A stretch of 64,000 nucleotides of DNA from an uncultured Eubacteriales bacterium (GTDB lineage: Bacteria > Bacillota > Clostridia > Christensenellales > Aristaeellaceae), in assembly GCA_902765395.1 (NCBI GenBank), contig CACWZP010000010.1, positions 1 to 64,000 of the forward strand, read 5' to 3'. The notes beneath the pieces were generated by a model. The model searched no databases. It was not told where the DNA came from and worked only from the letters and a program-made list of their open reading frames with translations. Positions within the stretch are counted from its first letter, which is position 1. Every line of letters begins with the position of its first letter. This document shows positions 2,758 through 11,172 of the stretch, piece after piece. The translations under genes and the position numbers were made by a program.

Positions 2758-4596
2758 TTACTTGACCACTTTGATCTTCACCTTGGCCACCTTGCCGTTG
2801 GACGTGCGCACAGCCACATAGCAGGTGCCCTTCTTCCAGGCGGTAACCCGCCCGTTTTCATCCACTGTGGCAATACTCTCCTTGGAGGACTTCCAGGCCA
2901 GAGTGGTGACGGCGGTGCTGGGCAGCACGGCCGCCTTCAGCTGCAGCGTCTTGCCCACCTTCAGCTTCACGGTCTTTGTCTTGTTCAGCTTCACCTTGGT
3001 GGGCACGGTGGGGTCGTACACCTTCACCGTCAGCGTCGCCTTCTTCTTGTTCTTGGTGGTGACGGTGATGGTGGACTTGCCCACGGCGACGGCCGTGACC
3101 AGGCCGGTGTCGGTGACGGAGGCATACTGGCTCTTGGAGGACTTGACGCCGGTGACCGTCCACTTCTTCTTCGTGGCGAACTTGGGCACCAGCTGCACCT
3201 TCTCGCCCAGGGGCACATTGATAGTGCCGTTCTTGCCGGTCTTGGTCAGCTTTTTCTGCACGGGGGGCTTCACCACCGTCACGGCGCAGCTGGCAGTGAA
3301 GCCGCCGTCGCCGGTCTTGACGGCGATGGTGGCGTTGCCCGCCTTCAGCGCGGTGACCTTGCCGTCGGCCACACTGGCCACGGCCTCGTCGCTGCTGGCC
3401 CAGGTGACTGCCTTGACGCCGGCGGTGTCCGGGGTGACGGTGGCGGTCAGGGTGGCGGTCTCGCCCGCGGTGAGGATGAGGCTGGTCTGGTCCAGGCTCA
3501 CGCCGGTGACGCTGATGCTGCCGTCGTCCGCGGAGACGCAGTTGGCGGGCAGGGGCTTCGCGCCGGGCCACTTGATGTACTTGATGTAGGTGTAGCCCTG
3601 CTTCCCCCAGGAATCGTAGAAGCCCTGCCAAGTGTAGTACCGGACGTGATGGCTCAGATTGTCGATGATGGTCACGCCGTCGGCGCTCTTGTCCGCCACG
3701 ATCATGCTGTGGCCGTGGTGGCCGCAGCCCAGGCCGTCGTTGTTGAAGCTCTTGCAGGACTTGGTGCAGCCGCACACGCGGATGGTGGCGCCCACGGTGG
3801 TCTGGCTGATGAAGTAGCGCACGTGCACCGGGGTTACCTTGCGCTGGGCGTCGTTCAGATTGCTCAGCAGGTTCAGGCCCGTGGCGCTCTTGCCCTCGAA
3901 ATTCTCGCTGAAATTGCAGCCCCAGACGAATCTATAGCAGTTCTGGGACCACTTCCAGCAGTTGTTGACCTCGGGGAACTGGGTGGCCTTGACCTCCTTG
4001 CCGTTCAGCACGAACAGGGTGTCGTTGGCCAGATAGGACGCGGCCAGCACCTCCAGGCTGTCGCCGTAGGTGACGCCGGAGAGCGCCGCCAGGGGCCAGT
4101 TCATATCGCCCTTGTACAGCGCGCCCACGCCGCTGACGGCCAGTGCGTCCAGGAAGGACTGGGTCTGCGCGTCGTCCATGGGCAGCAGGTCGGCAAGCTC
4201 CATCCAGCCGGACAGCACCTTGCCGTCAGCGCAAAAGGCCACGGGCGCGCGGCTGGCCATGGGGCCGGTCAGCAGCACGGTGTCGTTCAGGTTCAGAAGG
4301 GCCGCGGGTTCCCAGCTCTCCTGGTCGGGATAGACTGCGGCATCCGCGGTGCCGACGGTGCAATAAGCCAAGTCGGATGTATCGGTCTCGATATACTCAG
4401 CTTCGGCTTCCGGCTCTGGGGTGACCTCCGGGGCTGCGTCCTCCTGGCCATCGTCCACGGTGAGGCCGGTGTCCGCGTCCACGGTATCGGCCAGGGCGAT
4501 GTCCGGCTCCACCTGTTCCTCCATCAGAGCGGCGGGAGCCATGGAAGCCAGCAGGCACAGTGCCAACAGAAGCGCTATCAGTTTCATCGGTCGCAT
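2758..4596 (-). CDS. Secreted Cys-peptidase/CHAP-like protein with three Big_2 domains
   Basis: A 612-residue exported protein. The signal peptide is MRPMKLIALLLALCLLASM...APAA. An acidic P/E-rich linker follows (about 40-75). The middle (about 175-330) holds 'NCWKWSQNCYRFVWG', a Cys-rich stretch, 'GHHGHSMIVADKSADG' and 'IIDNLSHH'. Cys, then His in a GHS strand, then Asp/Asn is the order seen in CHAP/NlpC-type cysteine peptidases or amidases, so cell-wall hydrolysis is a reasonable but unproven guess. Residues about 345-612 are three Ig-like Big_2 repeats ('TLTATVTPDTAGVKAVTWAS', 'ATVDENGRVTAWKKG'). ATG at 4596 is chosen for GGAGGAAG 8 bases upstream, rather than the ATG 12 codons earlier. 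There is no sorting signal or membrane anchor at the C-terminus. Confidence 0.8.
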   Translation of the reverse strand: MRPMKLIALLLALCLLASMAPAALMEEQVEPDIALADTVDADTGLTVDDGQEDAAPEVTPEPEAEAEYIETDTSDLAYCTVGTADAAVYPDQESWEPAALLNLNDTVLLTGPMASRAPVAFCADGKVLSGWMELADLLPMDDAQTQSFLDALAVSGVGALYKGDMNWPLAALSGVTYGDSLEVLAASYLANDTLFVLNGKEVKATQFPEVNNCWKWSQNCYRFVWGCNFSENFEGKSATGLNLLSNLNDAQRKVTPVHVRYFISQTTVGATIRVCGCTKSCKSFNNDGLGCGHHGHSMIVADKSADGVTIIDNLSHHVRYYTWQGFYDSWGKQGYTYIKYIKWPGAKPLPANCVSADDGSISVTGVSLDQTSLILTAGETATLTATVTPDTAGVKAVTWASSDEAVASVADGKVTALKAGNATIAVKTGDGGFTASCAVTVVKPPVQKKLTKTGKNGTINVPLGEKVQLVPKFATKKKWTVTGVKSSKSQYASVTDTGLVTAVAVGKSTITVTTKNKKKATLTVKVYDPTVPTKVKLNKTKTVKLKVGKTLQLKAAVLPSTAVTTLAWKSSKESIATVDENGRVTAWKKGTCYVAVRTSNGKVAKVKIKVVK

Positions 4597-4641
4597 ACTC
4601 TCTTCCTCCAAAGGGTTTCCGTATTTTGACATTACAATAAT

Positions 4642-4670
4642 ATTCTAATATTATGTCATAAGTTTGTCAA
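4642..4670 (-). promoter_or_regulatory. Sigma-70 promoter of the Big_2 protein gene
   Basis: Reading leftward, TTGACA (4670-4665), a 17-base AT-rich spacer and TAGAAT (4647-4642), about 45 bases before the start at 4596. Confidence 0.75.
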
Positions 4671-4768
4671 GAGCAATCCAATTATGAAAAGATTTTGACC
4701 TAATGTTCCATTTATGTCCTATTTGCCTCCGAAAAACCGTGAAGTTTGTGTTATCAAGTGCAAATGGA

Positions 4769-4798
4769 TTGACAAGGGCAGGGTCTCTCCTCTATACT
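4769..4798 (+). promoter_or_regulatory. Sigma-70 promoter of the leader peptide/ABC exporter transcript
   Basis: TTGACA (4769-4774) and TATACT (4793-4798) with an 18-base spacer. Predicted transcription start near 4805 gives a leader of about 200 nt before the exporter gene, holding the small ORF and the attenuator hairpin. Confidence 0.8.
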
Positions 4799-4854
4799 GT
4801 CTTCCAGTGGCGCACGCGCGCCAGCGCAGAATAAACCGAACGGAGGTGTGTGAA

Positions 4855-4923
4855 ATGAAGCTTCGCAACGCAATCGCAGCCAAGCTTGTTTTCGCCTGCC
4901 GTCGAAGGGGTTATTCTGCCTGA
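4855..4923 (+). CDS. 22-residue leader peptide of the ABC exporter operon
   Basis: A short ORF (begins MKLRNAIAAKLVF, ends CRRRGYSA) with a textbook Shine-Dalgarno site GGAGGTG at 4842-4848. It lies between a strong promoter and an intrinsic terminator that closes 18 bases after its stop codon, ahead of a BmrCD-like exporter. That arrangement matches Bacillus subtilis bmrB-bmrCD, where translation of a leader peptide controls read-through in response to ribosome-targeting antibiotics (established for bmrB; inferred here). The Arg-Arg-Arg run near the end is a plausible stalling point. An inverted AAGCTT pair inside the ORF (4858-4863 and 4882-4887) could contribute to an alternative fold. A regulatory rather than a functional product is the likely role. 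Confidence 0.7.
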   Translation: MKLRNAIAAKLVFACRRRGYSA

Positions 4924-4941
4924 GTATTCCTGGGCAAGTGC

Positions 4942-4971
4942 CGCCGGACACGCAGGTGTCCGGCGTTTTTT
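4942..4971 (+). terminator. Attenuator (intrinsic terminator) upstream of ABC exporter
   Basis: Perfect 10-bp stem CGCCGGACAC/GTGTCCGGCG with a 4-base loop (4952-4955), followed by six T (4966-4971). It ends 33 bases before the exporter start codon, so it must be read through for exporter expression. Confidence 0.85.
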
Positions 4972-5004
4972 ATGCGCATAACTGATGCTATATGGAGGTT
5001 TCCC

Positions 5005-6870
5005 ATGCGGAATCAAATGACAAAATCCCCCGCCGAGAAGAGCGTATTGCAGCGCTTCCCCGAATTCATGAAGGGCAGCGGGATGAAATACCTGGGCAGC
5101 GTGCTGTCCGTGGCCGTCAGCGTGCTGACCGGCTTTTTGACGCCGCTGCTGATCGCCGGGGCCGTGGACGCCATCACCGACACGCTGAACGGCGCGGGCG
5201 CAAACCCCGTGAACCTGCCGGGCTTCCTGGCGGGCTGGTTCAACGCCAGGGGCGGCGCGGAGTACCTGGCCAGGCACGTGTGGATCGTGGCCGGGCTGCT
5301 GGTGGCGGTGAGCCTGATCGGCGGCCTGTTCCAGTACCTGCGGGGCAAGTGGAGCGCCGAGGCCAGCGAGACCATCGCCGAACGCATGCGCACGCGGCTG
5401 TACGGGCACCTGCTGGCCATGGACTACGATTACCACGTGAAGGCCCAGACCGGCGACCTGATCCAGCGCTGCACCACGGACGTGGAGACCGTGCGCCGCT
5501 TCCTGGCCAGCCAGGTGATCGAGATCTTCCGCACCGTCATCATGGTGGTGCTGGCGTTGACGCTGATGCTGAACATCCACGTGAAGCTGACGCTGATCTC
5601 GCTGATCCTCATTCCCCCGCTGTTCGGCCTGGCCTTCTGGTTCTTCCACTGGGTGCAGAAGCTGTTCCTGGAAGCGGACGAGGCGGACGGCCAGCTGAGC
5701 GCCATGCTGCAGGAGAGCCTGACCGGCGTGCGCGTGGTGCGGGCCTTCGGGCGGCAGCGCTACGAGAGCGACCGCTTCACCGTGCGGGCCGACGCCGTGT
5801 ACGACAAGAGCGTGCGCATCAGCCACGTGATGGCCATCTATTGGTCCGGGTCGGACATGCTCAGCATGCTCCAGACGGGGCTGACGCTGCTGTTCGGCAT
5901 CCTGTTCGCGGTGCGGGGCGAGATCACCACCGGCAACGTGCTGACCTTCGTCAGCTACATCTCCATGCTGATCTGGCCCATCCGCCAGCTGGGCCGCATA
6001 TTGCAGGACCTGGGCAAGTCCATGGTGGCCATGAAGCGCGTGTACGAGATCCTGGACGCGAAGGTGGAGGGCGACACCGCCGGCGCCGGCGAGGCGCCCC
6101 TCTACGAGGACATCGAGTTCAGGCACGTCTCCTTCCACTACGACGGCAAGCACCCGGTGCTCGAGGACGTGTCCTTCACCGTGAAGGCAGGCCAGACCGT
6201 GGCCATACTGGGCGCGACGGGCAGCGGCAAGAGCACGATGATGAACCTGCTGCAGCGGCTGTACGACGTGAGCGGCGGCGAGATCCTGATCGGCGGCCGG
6301 AACATCAACACCATCGAGAAGAAGTACCTGCGCAGCCGCGTGGGCTATGTGCTGCAGGAGCCCTTCCTCTATTCCCGCTCCATCCGGGACAACCTGGCCA
6401 TCACCCGCGAGGACGCCGCGGACGGCGAGATCCAGCGCGTGGCGGACGTGACCCACTCCACGGGCTTCATCACCCAGTTCAAGGAGGGCTACGGCACCAT
6501 GGTGGGCGAGCGGGGCGTGACCCTGTCCGGCGGCCAGAAGCAGCGCATCGCCATCGCGCGCACGCTGCTGAGGGAGAACGACATACTGATCCTGGACGAC
6601 TCCCTGTCCGCCGTGGACACCGAGACCGACCGGGCCATCCGCGAGGCGCTGAAGGAGGGCCGCAGCGCGGGAAGCCGCGTGCCCACCACGTTCATCATCT
6701 CCCACCGGCTGACCACGCTGGCCGACGCCGACCTGATCCTCGTTCTGGAGGACGGCAAAATCGCCCAGCAGGGCCGACACGAGCAGCTGATCCAGCGGGA
6801 GGGCCTGTATCAGCGGGTGTACCGCATCCAGGCCGCGCTGGAGGACGAATTGAACAGTGAGATCGCGTGA
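5005..6870 (+). CDS. ABC exporter half-transporter, degenerate-site subunit (BmrC/TM287-like)
   Basis: 621 residues. The N-terminal type-1 exporter membrane domain (about 30-330, six TM segments) is followed by an ATPase domain: Walker A GATGSGKS near residue 403, signature LSGGQ near 507, and Walker B 'ILILDDS' near 527. The residue after the Walker B aspartate is Asp instead of the catalytic Glu. With the partner's altered signature (LSTGQ), this reproduces the one-degenerate-site design of heterodimeric multidrug exporters such as BmrCD, LmrCD and TM287/288. ATG 5005 follows GGAGG; an upstream in-frame ATG at 4972 overlaps the terminator and is rejected. Expected substrates are drugs or lipids, from family knowledge. 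Expression is probably controlled by the upstream attenuator. Confidence 0.9.
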   Translation: MRNQMTKSPAEKSVLQRFPEFMKGSGMKYLGSVLSVAVSVLTGFLTPLLIAGAVDAITDTLNGAGANPVNLPGFLAGWFNARGGAEYLARHVWIVAGLLVAVSLIGGLFQYLRGKWSAEASETIAERMRTRLYGHLLAMDYDYHVKAQTGDLIQRCTTDVETVRRFLASQVIEIFRTVIMVVLALTLMLNIHVKLTLISLILIPPLFGLAFWFFHWVQKLFLEADEADGQLSAMLQESLTGVRVVRAFGRQRYESDRFTVRADAVYDKSVRISHVMAIYWSGSDMLSMLQTGLTLLFGILFAVRGEITTGNVLTFVSYISMLIWPIRQLGRILQDLGKSMVAMKRVYEILDAKVEGDTAGAGEAPLYEDIEFRHVSFHYDGKHPVLEDVSFTVKAGQTVAILGATGSGKSTMMNLLQRLYDVSGGEILIGGRNINTIEKKYLRSRVGYVLQEPFLYSRSIRDNLAITREDAADGEIQRVADVTHSTGFITQFKEGYGTMVGERGVTLSGGQKQRIAIARTLLRENDILILDDSLSAVDTETDRAIREALKEGRSAGSRVPTTFIISHRLTTLADADLILVLEDGKIAQQGRHEQLIQREGLYQRVYRIQAALEDELNSEIA

Positions 6871-6900
6871 TAAACGCGTTAACAGAAAAAGCGATTGTAG

Positions 6901-7022
6901 GTTGAGTTCCCCCTCTCCGCCCTTCGGGCACCTCTCCCCCTTCCAGGGGCGAGGCAAGTTGAGCGCTCCCTTGGCTCGCCTCCGCAAGGGGCAAGCCGGC
7001 GCGCAGCACCAGAGAGGGGGCT
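6901..7022. repeat. Dispersed intergenic repeat, copy 1
   Basis: The spacer between the exporter genes contains CCCTCTCCGCCCTTCGGGCA, then CACCTCTCCCCCTTCCAGGG and a GGCAAG...TTGGCTCGCC...AGAGAGGG tail. The same order of words recurs at 58473-58606. Internal inverted repeats (GCCCTTCGGGC, CTCCCCC/AGGGGCGAG) suggest a REP/MITE-like element. It has been crossed by the exporter operon without breaking either gene. Confidence 0.6.
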
Positions 7023-7060
7023 GCAAAACCGAAGCATCCGATAATCGAGGTGAAAAACCC

Positions 7061-8905
7061 ATGCAATACCAGCAGGAACAGGATTATACCAAGAAGCTGG
7101 ACGCGGGGCTGTGGCGCCGGGTGATCGGCTATATGAAGCCCTATCACCGGCACCTGATCGCCATCATGGCGACCATGGCCGTCAGCGCGCTCTGCGACAC
7201 CATCTTCCCGCTGCTGACCCGGGAGGCCATCGACACCTTCATCGGTTCGGGGCAGACCGCCGGGCGGGCCTGGTTCATCGCGCGCTATCTGGGCACGGTG
7301 CTGCTGCAGTCCGCCTGCATATTCACGTTCTGCCAGATCTGCGGCAAGGCCGAGTGCGGCATCAACCGCCACATCCGCAAGCTGGCCTTCAAGCGGCTGG
7401 AGGAGCTGTCCTTCTCCTACTACGACCAGACGCCCGTGGGCTTCATCATCTCCCGCATGACCAGCGACACCAGCCGCATCGGCGAGACGGTGGCCTGGGG
7501 ACTGGTGGATTTGTTCTGGTCCGGGGCCTACATACTCATCACCGCCATCGCCATGCTGCTGCTGAACGCGCGAATGGCGCTGCTGGTGCTGAGCGTGATG
7601 CCCGTCATCGCCGTGACGGCGGTGTGGTTCCAGAAGCGCATTCTGGCCAGCTACCGGGAGGTGCGCAAGACCAACAGCCAGATCACCGGCGCGTTCAACG
7701 AAGGCATCATGGGCGCCAAGACCAGCAAGACGCTGGTGCGCGAGGAGGCCAACGCGAAGGAGTTTTCCGTGCTGACGGGCAAGATGCGCACGTCCTCCAT
7801 CCGGGCGGCGGTGTTCAGCGCGCTGTTCTACCCCATCGTCATCTCCCTGGGCTCCATCGCCACGGCGCTGGTGCTGCAGCGGGGCGGCACGGAGGTGTTC
7901 AGCGCCAGCGGCATCGTCACCGTGGGCACGCTGGCGGCCTTCGTGCAGTACTCCACCGGCATCTTCGAGCCCGTGAGCAACATCGCCCGCATCTTCGCCG
8001 ACCTCCAGGCCAGCCAGGCCGCGGCGGAGCGCGTGGTGAGCTTACTTGAGACCGAGCCGGAGATCTTCGACACGCCGGAGGTGATCGAGAAGTTCGGCGA
8101 CAGCTTCAGCCCCAAGAAGGAGAACTGGCCGGACATCAAGGGCGACATCGAGTTCGACCACGTATCCTTCCACTATTCCACCGGCGAAGAGGTGCTGGAG
8201 GACTTCAGCCTGAAGGTGAAGGCCGGGCAGACCGTGGCGCTGGTGGGCGAGACCGGCAGCGGCAAGAGCACCATCGTGAACCTGATCTGCCGCTTCTACG
8301 AGCCCACCAAGGGCGTGATCCGCATCGACGGCGAGGACTACCGCAGCCGCAGCATCCTCTGGCTCCAGGCCCACCTGGGCTACGTGCTGCAGCAGCCGCA
8401 CCTGTTCTCCGGCACCATCCGCGAAAACATCCGCTTCGGTCGGCTGGACGCCACGGATCGCGAGATCGAGGCCGCCTGCCGCGCCGTGGACGCCGAGGAC
8501 TTCATCCTCAAGATGGAGAAGGGCTACGACACCGAGGTCGGCGAGGGCGGCAGCCGCCTGTCCACCGGCCAGAAGCAGCTGATCTCCTTCGCCCGGGCGC
8601 TGATCGCCAAGCCCGCCATATTCGTGCTGGACGAGGCCACGTCCTCCGTGGACACCCAGACCGAGCAAAAGCTGCAGGCCGCCATCTCCGTGGCGCTGAC
8701 CGGGCGCACCAGCTTCATCATCGCCCACCGGCTGTCCACCATCCGCAGCGCCGATTTGATCCTGGTGATCAAGGGCGGCAAGATCATCGAGCGCGGCACC
8801 CACGCCGAACTGCTGGGCCAGAGGGGCTACTACTACACCCTGTACGCCAACCAGTTCCGCGAGGAGGGCGAGAAGCGGGCCTGGGAGGAGGGCGCGAGCG
8901 CGTAA
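7061..8905 (+). CDS. ABC exporter half-transporter, catalytic-site subunit (BmrD/TM288-like)
   Basis: 614 residues: type-1 exporter membrane domain (about 25-330) and ATPase domain with Walker A GETGSGKS near 396, signature LSTGQ near 500 and Walker B 'IFVLDEATSSVD' near 522 with the catalytic Glu intact. The altered signature faces the partner's degenerate Walker B, so the pair should have one hydrolytic and one non-hydrolytic site. The start at 7061 follows GAGGTGAAAAACCC and matches the family; an open frame extends back to 6857 through the intergenic repeat but that stretch is not protein-like. It is co-transcribed with the gene at 5005 and ends at a strong terminator. Confidence 0.9.
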   Translation: MQYQQEQDYTKKLDAGLWRRVIGYMKPYHRHLIAIMATMAVSALCDTIFPLLTREAIDTFIGSGQTAGRAWFIARYLGTVLLQSACIFTFCQICGKAECGINRHIRKLAFKRLEELSFSYYDQTPVGFIISRMTSDTSRIGETVAWGLVDLFWSGAYILITAIAMLLLNARMALLVLSVMPVIAVTAVWFQKRILASYREVRKTNSQITGAFNEGIMGAKTSKTLVREEANAKEFSVLTGKMRTSSIRAAVFSALFYPIVISLGSIATALVLQRGGTEVFSASGIVTVGTLAAFVQYSTGIFEPVSNIARIFADLQASQAAAERVVSLLETEPEIFDTPEVIEKFGDSFSPKKENWPDIKGDIEFDHVSFHYSTGEEVLEDFSLKVKAGQTVALVGETGSGKSTIVNLICRFYEPTKGVIRIDGEDYRSRSILWLQAHLGYVLQQPHLFSGTIRENIRFGRLDATDREIEAACRAVDAEDFILKMEKGYDTEVGEGGSRLSTGQKQLISFARALIAKPAIFVLDEATSSVDTQTEQKLQAAISVALTGRTSFIIAHRLSTIRSADLILVIKGGKIIERGTHAELLGQRGYYYTLYANQFREEGEKRAWEEGASA

Positions 8906-9507: not shown

Positions 9508-11172
9508 ATGAAGAAACTGTTTGCCTTCCTGCTGGCGCTGGCTCTGGCCCTCGCCACGCTGACCGTGCCCGCCCTGGCGGAGGACGCGCCCAAGGCAGGC
9601 AAGGCCAAGACGGTCATCACGCTCTCCCACTCCGGCACCGTCACGCTCAATAAGGGCGACACGCTCCAGCTGACGGCCACGGTCACGCCGAATAAGAAGG
9701 TGACGTGGAAGTCGTCATCGAAGAAGATTGCCACCGTGAGCAAGACCGGGCTGGTCACCGCCAAGAAGACCGGCACGGCCACCATCACCGCCAAGGCAGG
9801 CAAGAAGACCGCCAAGGTGAAGATCAAGGTCGTAGACCCCTATAAGCCCACTGGAGTATCCATCAGTCAGGGCAAGTCCGCGAAGCTGAACCTGGGAGGT
9901 ACCCTCCAGCTGGGCGCTGTGCTCAAGCCCTCGACTGCCAGGGCAACTCTCAAGTGGAAGTCCAGCAAGACCAAGGTCGCTACCGTAGACGGGAACGGCG
10001 TCGTCACGGCCAAGGCCGAGGGCAAGGCCAAGATCACCGTAACCGCCGGTAAGAAGAAGGCAACCATCACCATCACCGTGGTGAACCCGAACAAACCCAC
10101 GGGCATCAGCCTCAACCGCTCCGGCACCGTCAAGCTCCCGATGAACGAGACCCTCACGCTCACCGCCACGCTCCAGCCCTCTACCGCCGTGGGCAACGTC
10201 ACATGGAAGACCAGCAACAAGAAGGTTGCCACGGTCAACGGTGGCGTCGTCACCCCCAAGAAGAAGGGCACGGTCACGATCACGGCCAAGGTGGGCAAGA
10301 AGTCTGCCAAGGTCAAGATCAAGGTCGTCAGCGCGAGCGAGCACCAGCACGCCTGGGAGCCCATCTATACCACCAACACTGTAGTGGACACTCCCGCCTG
10401 GGACGAGACCGTCGTCGACACTCCCGCATGGGATGAAACCGTCGTGGACACTCCTGCCACCACCCAGACCGTCAACCATCCGGAAGAGGGCCACTACGAG
10501 CAGGTCGAACACAAGGCCGAAGGTCACTACGAGACCAAGACCGTAACCGACAAGGAAGCCTGGGTCGAACAGGTTCCCGTCTACAAGGATCGCTGGGTCG
10601 TGACCCAGGAGGCCTGGACGGAAAAGACGAAGTTAGTGGAAGGTGTCAAGTGCTACTGCGGGAAGATGTTCAAGACCTATGACGAGTGGGACGCACACTC
10701 CCAGCGTAACATTCAAGTATCAAATTATTATAATGGTTTCTGGGATGCCACACCCGAAGCCAAGAAAGCCATTGAAGATGCTTACGGCAATCCTCCCAAA
10801 GGCGATGGAGATTACCACGGACGACACGATGGATACAGCATTTGCTCCTACGAAGTCGACCTCGACCCCTCCGAATGGATCGAACATCCGGAAGAGGGTG
10901 TCTGGGAGAACTACTTCACGGGCGAATACGAGACCGTCCAGCATCCGGCCGAAACCCACGAAGAAAATGTGTGGGTCGAAGACAAGGCTGGCTGGACCGA
11001 GAACAAATGGGTCGTGGACAAGAAAGCCTGGACCGAGACTGTCAACATCCCGGCAAAAACCCACGTCGTTCACCATGACCCCGTCACCCACGTAGTGCAT
11101 CACGATGCCGTGACACATACCGAACAGGTTGTGACCGGGCACAAGTGCTCGACGTGCGGAGCGACCAAGTAG
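9508..11172 (+). CDS. Secreted protein: three Big_2 domains plus Trp-rich repeats and Cys/His metal-binding motifs
   Basis: 554 residues with a clear signal peptide (MKKLFAFLLALALALATLTV...ALA). Residues about 35-275 are three Lys-rich Big_2 domains ('KVTWKSSSKKIATVSKTGLV', 'TLKWKSSKTKVATVDGNGVV', 'NVTWKTSNKKVATVNGGVV'). The rest is unusual: tandem 'VVDTPAWDET' units near 292-318, many 'EAW/KAW' units, His-rich 'THVVHHDPVTHVVHHDAVTH', a central Cys-X-Cys...His motif ('CYCGKMFKTYDEWDAHSQ') and a final 'CSTCGATK'. The Cys/His pairs look like a small zinc-binding unit, a type seen in clostridial surface and phage-related proteins. AAGGAGGAATACCC precedes the ATG. There is no LPXTG motif or C-terminal membrane helix. 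Function unknown. Confidence 0.8.
   Translation: MKKLFAFLLALALALATLTVPALAEDAPKAGKAKTVITLSHSGTVTLNKGDTLQLTATVTPNKKVTWKSSSKKIATVSKTGLVTAKKTGTATITAKAGKKTAKVKIKVVDPYKPTGVSISQGKSAKLNLGGTLQLGAVLKPSTARATLKWKSSKTKVATVDGNGVVTAKAEGKAKITVTAGKKKATITITVVNPNKPTGISLNRSGTVKLPMNETLTLTATLQPSTAVGNVTWKTSNKKVATVNGGVVTPKKKGTVTITAKVGKKSAKVKIKVVSASEHQHAWEPIYTTNTVVDTPAWDETVVDTPAWDETVVDTPATTQTVNHPEEGHYEQVEHKAEGHYETKTVTDKEAWVEQVPVYKDRWVVTQEAWTEKTKLVEGVKCYCGKMFKTYDEWDAHSQRNIQVSNYYNGFWDATPEAKKAIEDAYGNPPKGDGDYHGRHDGYSICSYEVDLDPSEWIEHPEEGVWENYFTGEYETVQHPAETHEENVWVEDKAGWTENKWVVDKKAWTETVNIPAKTHVVHHDPVTHVVHHDAVTHTEQVVTGHKCSTCGATK

Follow-up and report, generated by a model that had tools for sequence, protein, structure and literature searches.

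A probable ribosome-mediated attenuator with a three-segment switch ahead of a BmrCD-type exporter pair in uncultured Clostridia

Background

Among the described systems closest to the locus treated here is bmrB-bmrCD of Bacillus subtilis, described as the first ribosome-mediated transcription attenuator of a multidrug ATP-binding cassette (ABC) transporter, and for which induction by 50S drugs was shown (PMC4191407). A survey from 2010 listed 205 candidate attenuators upstream of ABC transporter genes, including one that precedes a multidrug export operon in lactobacilli (PMC2965389). Here we analyse the leader of a predicted BmrCD-type exporter pair in the genome of an uncultured Eubacteriales bacterium (assembly GCA_902765395.1, contig CACWZP010000010.1, positions 1 to 64,000 of the forward strand; this whole stretch of 64,000 nucleotides (nt) is called the window). 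We consider it probable that a ribosome-mediated transcription attenuator of the bmrB kind, built as a three-segment switch, controls this exporter. No description of such a switch in Clostridia was found in titles and abstract openings of the top-ranked open-licence PMC literature.

Organization of the leader and comparison with known systems

The leader consists of the following parts, in which SD stands for Shine-Dalgarno, ORF for open reading frame, and R1 to R4 for the segments of the switch:

4769..4798, + strand: sigma-70-type promoter TTGACA-N18-TATACT (-35 box 4769-4774, -10 box 4793-4798; 11/12 consensus)
4841..4848, + strand: R1, the leader SD region CGGAGGTG, strand 1 of the proposed anti-antiterminator
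4855..4923, + strand: leader ORF of 22 codons, MKLRNAIAAKLVFACRRRGYSA
4858..4866, + strand: Lys-Leu-Arg (+X+), codons 2-4, a motif read from the sequence; proposed site of a macrolide-type stall, Leu3 being in the P site
4893..4903, + strand: R2, CGCCTGCCGTC, from the last base of codon 13 to the first base of codon 17; can pair with R1 or R3
4942..4965, + strand: R3/R4, intrinsic terminator with a perfect 10-bp stem and GCAG loop, then T6
4950..4955, + strand: ACGCAG, the portion of R3 pairing with R2 in the proposed antiterminator

The SD CGGAGGTG stops 6 nt 5´ of the leader ATG, and 18 nt separate the stop codon from the terminator, which reads CGCCGGACAC-GCAG-GTGTCCGGCG, then TTTTTTAT. The initial annotation of this DNA had placed a promoter, a 22-codon leader ORF and a perfect 10-bp terminator 5´ of a heterodimeric ABC exporter pair, and all of them were seen where it had placed them.

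It had also likened the arrangement to bmrB-bmrCD. The likeness is sound as far as the leader ORF, the attenuator and the kind of target genes are concerned, and it extends to an antiterminator and an anti-antiterminator predicted in both systems. It breaks down at the terminator, which lies inside the 53-residue bmrB ORF but past the 22-codon ORF here, so that the strict bmrB-type arrangement is absent; a second difference is that here the leader SD would itself be one strand of the anti-antiterminator (PMC4191407). The vmlR leader of B. subtilis has the same anti-antiterminator, antiterminator and terminator logic with a ribosome stalled early in an upstream ORF (uORF); it differs in having a tripeptide uORF with an SD that is single-stranded by description, an ABC-F target gene and an extra hairpin sequestering the vmlR SD (PMC9226507). 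Leaders of the mef(E), erm(K) and erm(D) type share MRLR or MKLR (+X+) in a short leader and, in mef(E)/mel, transcription attenuation; their motif occupies residues 6-8, whereas here it occupies residues 2-4, lacks the MTAS/MTHS stretch and is not universal in orthologues (PMC4335068, PMC8298421). In Streptococcus pneumoniae, patAB likewise encodes a heterodimeric ABC exporter preceded by a terminator attenuator with predicted anti- and anti-antiterminator, but it is linked to fluoroquinolones, and the passages of its description used here do not mention a leader ORF (PMC4319486). The logic of our locus resembles that of vmlR and bmrB; what it adds is breadth combined with wholesale replacement of sequence, use of the SD and a terminator lying outside the ORF.

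Proposed mechanism

On a leader without ribosome, R2 would pair with R1, leaving R3 free for R4, and transcription would end. Under normal translation, the ribosome would pass over R2 and the terminator would form again. A ribosome held by a drug at the first codons would instead cover R1 and leave R2 free; R2 might then capture the emerging terminator 5´ arm and loop (R3), allowing RNA polymerase to read through into the exporter genes. Leader translation, the kinetic capture of R3 and antibiotic induction are what we infer in this model, and putative control by ribosome-targeting drugs, as the initial annotation had it, is plausible.

Co-evolution of the three segments between genera

What the computation shows is which parts are conserved, that three-way pairing is possible, and that this pairing potential has co-evolved between genera. 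We regard whole-segment co-evolution as the strongest evidence, because lineages swapped out all three segments jointly. Exporter homologues were present in 58 of 120 genomes of the family, 54 of them outside the genus, and the best 26 of these 54 loci were used; in a class-wide search they were present in 41 of 291 genomes including that of the window, and the best 29 of the 40 others were used. By rules combined with hand work, an SD, a short ORF and a terminator were located 5´ of the exporter in 24/26 family and 21/29 class loci. Leader or terminator was not found in L098 and L099 of the family set, nor in L117, L118, L120, L125, L128, L133 and L135 of the class set, where L125 and L133 lie on contigs ending shortly upstream; L114 was dropped as ambiguous. 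A stricter automatic detector of the same three parts accepted 19/26 and 11/29 loci, and none in dinucleotide-shuffled sequence (10 rounds per set).

Between genera the peptides, the SD surroundings and the terminators all differ, and pairing persists nevertheless. Over 29 genera of 9 families, R1 pairs with its own R2 at -20.2 kcal/mol, compared with -14.9 kcal/mol for partners from other loci; for R2 and R3 the values are -15.9 and -11.7 kcal/mol. Neither difference was reached in any of 20,000 permutations. When only automatically delineated loci were used (24 genera), the result was again 0/20,000 for both helices. One automatic locus per family (9) gave 0/20,000 for R1:R2 and 7/20,000 for R2:R3, and the 14 genera outside the home family alone gave 0/20,000 and 1/20,000. 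As a control, the exporters' own SDs were set against their own codons in 28 of the 29 genera; pairing was absent there (z +2.0 and +1.0), while the leaders of the same 28 genera gave z -9.6.

On these grounds we lean, with less assurance than for the single locus, towards a widespread, sequence-unconserved class of attenuators guarding BmrC-like exporters across Clostridia. In all of them the leader SD would be the anti-antiterminator strand, the last leader codons would contain an anti-SD segment for which it competes with the terminator 5´ arm and loop, and any ribosome arrested near the start codon would be the inducing signal. A search by sequence or covariance starting from one genus would be blind to such a class, as a change of genus brings a joint replacement of all three segments. 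If the class is real, drug-inducible efflux in many uncultured Clostridia runs through one RNA logic that ordinary annotation has missed, and the bmrB paradigm extends to nine families of another class. It would also yield precise predictions on the required position of the ribosome stall, and perhaps a simple finder for such switches, namely a test of whether the end of a leader pairs with the SD of that leader as well as with the following terminator.

A conserved function of the peptide was considered as well; outside the genus it finds no support, the peptides there being unrelated. Two minor observations concern these loci. Four leaders of one family, f43 (L119, L126, L137, L139), end in PP(V/A)CSK and form a second sequence-conserved leader group, whose CCTCC codons could pair with the SD. 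By eye, six loci from other families (L111, L112, L113, L115, L130, L134) have a tandem pair of terminator-like hairpins (type CCATAGG...CCTATGG) in front of the exporter.

Conservation within the genus

Among 28 genomes of the same genus, 16 contain an exporter homologue (E <= 1e-30). Fifteen of these, with 79-100% identity in their N-terminal 200 residues, are orthologues; the sixteenth, in G203 (36-40% identity), is not, and no such leader was found there. All 15 orthologues are preceded by a promoter with 11/12 consensus, by a related leader ORF ending in (A/T)CR plus 4-9 further residues, and by a terminator hairpin, the stem being perfect in 13/15 (the script found none in G202 and G016) and changed on both sides at 3 of its 10 pairs in the genus alignment. 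The expectation that a leader and attenuator would be kept upstream of homologous BmrC/BmrD-type pairs is thus borne out in the genus; outside it the architecture is retained and the peptide sequence is not. Fourteen loci at 81-98% identity belong to metagenome-assembled genomes of uncultured Clostridiales or Clostridia, some titled rumen or jejunum; the RUG prefix of relatives' assemblies presumably stands for rumen as well.

A covariance model built from the 15 genus loci recovered these loci at E < 1e-19, as expected by construction, and the 15 genomes with strong matches (of 28) are the same 15 that have an exporter orthologue. Elsewhere in 308 family genomes, under stricter filters, it gave weak matches only. 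The best of them (L070, E 1.3e-5) lies at what reads as a terminator between oligopeptide-transporter-like genes. Searching 200 family genomes with the leader peptide gave 16 matches. Besides the window, five adjoin an orthologue (L004, L005, L006, L009, L017), all of the same genus at 83-98% identity; the other ten (E 0.06-0.9) have no adjoining orthologue and look like chance. In one genus locus (L020, genome G108) the distance from the -10 box to the leader start is about 62 bases longer than in the window (118 versus 56), and a second GC-rich palindrome-like stretch is present upstream of the leader.

A small-molecule riboswitch or a T-box controlling the terminator is scarcely credible: we found no supporting points, positions 4600-5300 have no Rfam match at E up to 5, and beyond the genus the leader RNA model matches nothing comparably well.

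Pairing within the genus and points against the switch

Inside the genus, leader codons 14-16 are nearly invariant as DNA, reading (G/A)CCTGCCG(T/C) in 14/15 orthologues and GCTTGCCGC in one. Over the 15 sequences, 95.8% of cells are paired in the R1:R2 helix and 94.4% in the R2:R3 helix. R2:R3 pairing exceeds synonymous-codon nulls in 11/15 orthologues at p <= 0.037 (mean 6.7 versus 2.1), and R1:R2 exceeds dinucleotide shuffles at p < 0.05 in 8/15 genus and 18/24 other family loci. The ACR and (S/F)A peptide ends seen throughout the genus may at least partly reflect RNA pairing.

Several results weigh against the three-segment switch. There is no R1:R2 covariation among the 15 sequences, and that of R2:R3 is slight: one pair changed on both sides, in 2 cells, which 35 of 500 column shuffles equalled. 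The window's own R2:R3 pairing (4.75 versus 2.59 expected) is unremarkable under the synonymous-codon null (p = 0.26); by the same kind of null, R1:R2 is significant at p < 0.05 in just 4/15 orthologues. Against dinucleotide shuffles, R2:R3 reaches p < 0.05 in 1/15 genus and 6/24 other family loci. The RNAalifold consensus for R2-R3 holds almost nothing and was not useful. Simple mimicry of the SD, with R1 and R3 sharing words, was also tried and rejected (4.40 versus 4.07, no longer words than chance). In the ribosome-masked folds described below, 6/15 orthologues are predicted to form at least 3 R2:R3 pairs even without a ribosome, and G206 and G192 show little R2:R3 pairing with a stall at codons 2-9. 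Finally, the minimum-energy fold retains the terminator in all 13 of the 15 orthologues that were folded. Because this fold always keeps the terminator, antitermination must be kinetic.

That thermodynamic dominance also suits another explanation, namely that the terminator acts as a fixed attenuator with no effect beyond a lower basal expression, the short ORF either being incidental or determining how stable the leader is. The terminator attenuator of patAB, with no leader ORF mentioned in the passages used, would be a precedent (PMC4319486). Against this, 60 loci in 9 families have retained SD, ORF and R2, and their pairing co-evolves; we consider a fixed attenuator unlikely.

Ribosome position and predicted folds

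We folded the nascent RNA up to the terminator loop with the footprint of a ribosome masked; the footprint sizes are assumptions. Averaged over the 29 genera, 3.8 R2:R3 pairs are predicted without a ribosome, 7.5 with one at codons 2-6 and 1.1 with one at the last three codons. The early ribosome gives more pairs than the late one in 26/29 genera, and more than no ribosome in 23/29. Masking R1 necessarily frees R2, and masking R2 necessarily blocks it; what is informative is how foreign R3 performs: when R3 was taken from 8 random other genera, the early-ribosome value dropped to 2.6, and the own R3 was higher in 24/29 genera. An antiterminator reachable only with a ribosome held upstream is what the folds predict, on the set of genera only. 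Placing the ribosome at codon 3 yields 3 or more predicted R2:R3 pairs in 12/15 genus orthologues for two footprints and in 10/15 for a smaller one. For the window leader, P-site codons 1-3 and 9 are favourable (about 4-7 predicted R2:R3 pairs), while codons 4-8 and 14-22 yield 0-0.5.

These predictions bear on the suggestion in the initial annotation that the Arg-Arg-Arg run sets the stalling site. According to this alternative, the run at codons 16-18 is the sensor, and slowing at CRRR by drugs, rare Arg codons or arginine shortage leads to antitermination. CGT, CGA and AGG are indeed rare, making up 1.7, 2.8 and 6.1% of the Arg codons in nine window ORFs, and a section heading in the bmrB study states that rare codons affect the decision there (PMC4191407). 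CRRR, however, is present in 3/15 orthologues only, and the rare CGT, found in the leaders of 11/15, is accounted for by its pairing with R3. A ribosome at codons 14-22 of the window leader leaves at most 0.02 predicted R2:R3 pairs; stalled at the Arg run it would cover R2, which antitermination needs, and so favour termination. An Arg-run sensor is very unlikely, and the suggestion finds no support here: induction would need stalling near the start, where MKLR sits.

Stall site and inducer

Eight of the 15 genus leaders start with MKLR, MRLR or VKLR as read from the sequence, three more have +X+ within ten residues (11/15 in all), and the motif is absent in 4/15. In ErmDL, the ribosome arrested at +X+ has Leu7 in its P site and Arg8 in its A site (PMC8298421), and known macrolide leaders are tabulated with MRLR or MKLR (PMC4335068). 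By analogy with ErmDL, a macrolide-bound ribosome meeting +X+ at codons 2-4 would arrest with codon 3 in the P site. In residues 1-10, +X+ is found in 27/60 loci and in 12/29 genus representatives. The latter figure compares with 6.7 predicted by the composition of their own N-termini (p = 0.007) and with 50/239 uncurated ordinary ORFs (p = 0.016), a moderate enrichment; inside the home family alone there is none (4/15, p = 0.355).

That the main inducers are macrolide-like and act at the K-L-R motif is the least certain part of our proposal. Because 4/15 orthologues lack +X+ and its enrichment elsewhere is only moderate, we can only guess at the drug class, though a macrolide-type signal is a reasonable guess. 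We give somewhat less than even weight to the same switch with a different sensor, in which many 50S drugs would act by generally arresting or slowing ribosomes after initiation, and the peptide sequence would matter little. The unrelated peptides outside the genus and the absence of +X+ from residues 1-10 in 17/29 representatives speak for it, as does the response of bmrB to lincomycin, erythromycin and chloramphenicol (PMC4191407); the enrichment of +X+ and the eight genus leaders with MKLR, MRLR or VKLR speak against it. Between a macrolide-type signal and broad 50S-drug sensing, as in bmrB, we favour neither.

Exporter genes and surrounding features

Other features of the region are:

4809..4822, + strand: palindrome GGCGC-N4-GCGCC at the probable transcript 5´ end
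5005..6870, + strand: BmrC-like ABC half-exporter, Walker B LILDDSLSAVD with the catalytic Glu replaced by Asp
7061..8905, + strand: BmrD-like ABC half-exporter, Walker B VLDEATSSVD, signature LSTGQ, degenerate

The palindrome, which recurs with a varied loop in 9/15 genus orthologues in a pattern search, may be a 5´ hairpin or an operator. Both half-exporters score above curated cut-offs for PF00664 and PF00005, none of the NCBIfam models listed for them reached its cut-off, and their PDB relatives include the BmrC/BmrD structures (YheI/YheH), with ABCB1 chains scoring higher. Judged against what we take to be the consensus of these motifs, Asp for Glu in the first protein together with the degenerate LSTGQ in the second makes a heterodimer pattern. 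The BmrCD type is defined by a pair of neighbouring ABC half-exporters in which one nucleotide site is degenerate, and from sequence the pair is predicted to be a multidrug pump of this type.

In the divergent intergenic region, two further promoter-like sites overlap, at 4626-4654 (+) and 4670-4642 (-). On either side of the exporter operon lies a gene for a probable secreted protein, at 2758-4632 (-) and 9508-11172 (+), both with signal-peptide-like starts and repeated immunoglobulin-like segments as read from the sequence. Between the exporter genes, positions 6900-7036 hold a dispersed repeat with 20 matching places in its own genome including itself, mostly short copies of 25-123 bases at 74-100% identity.

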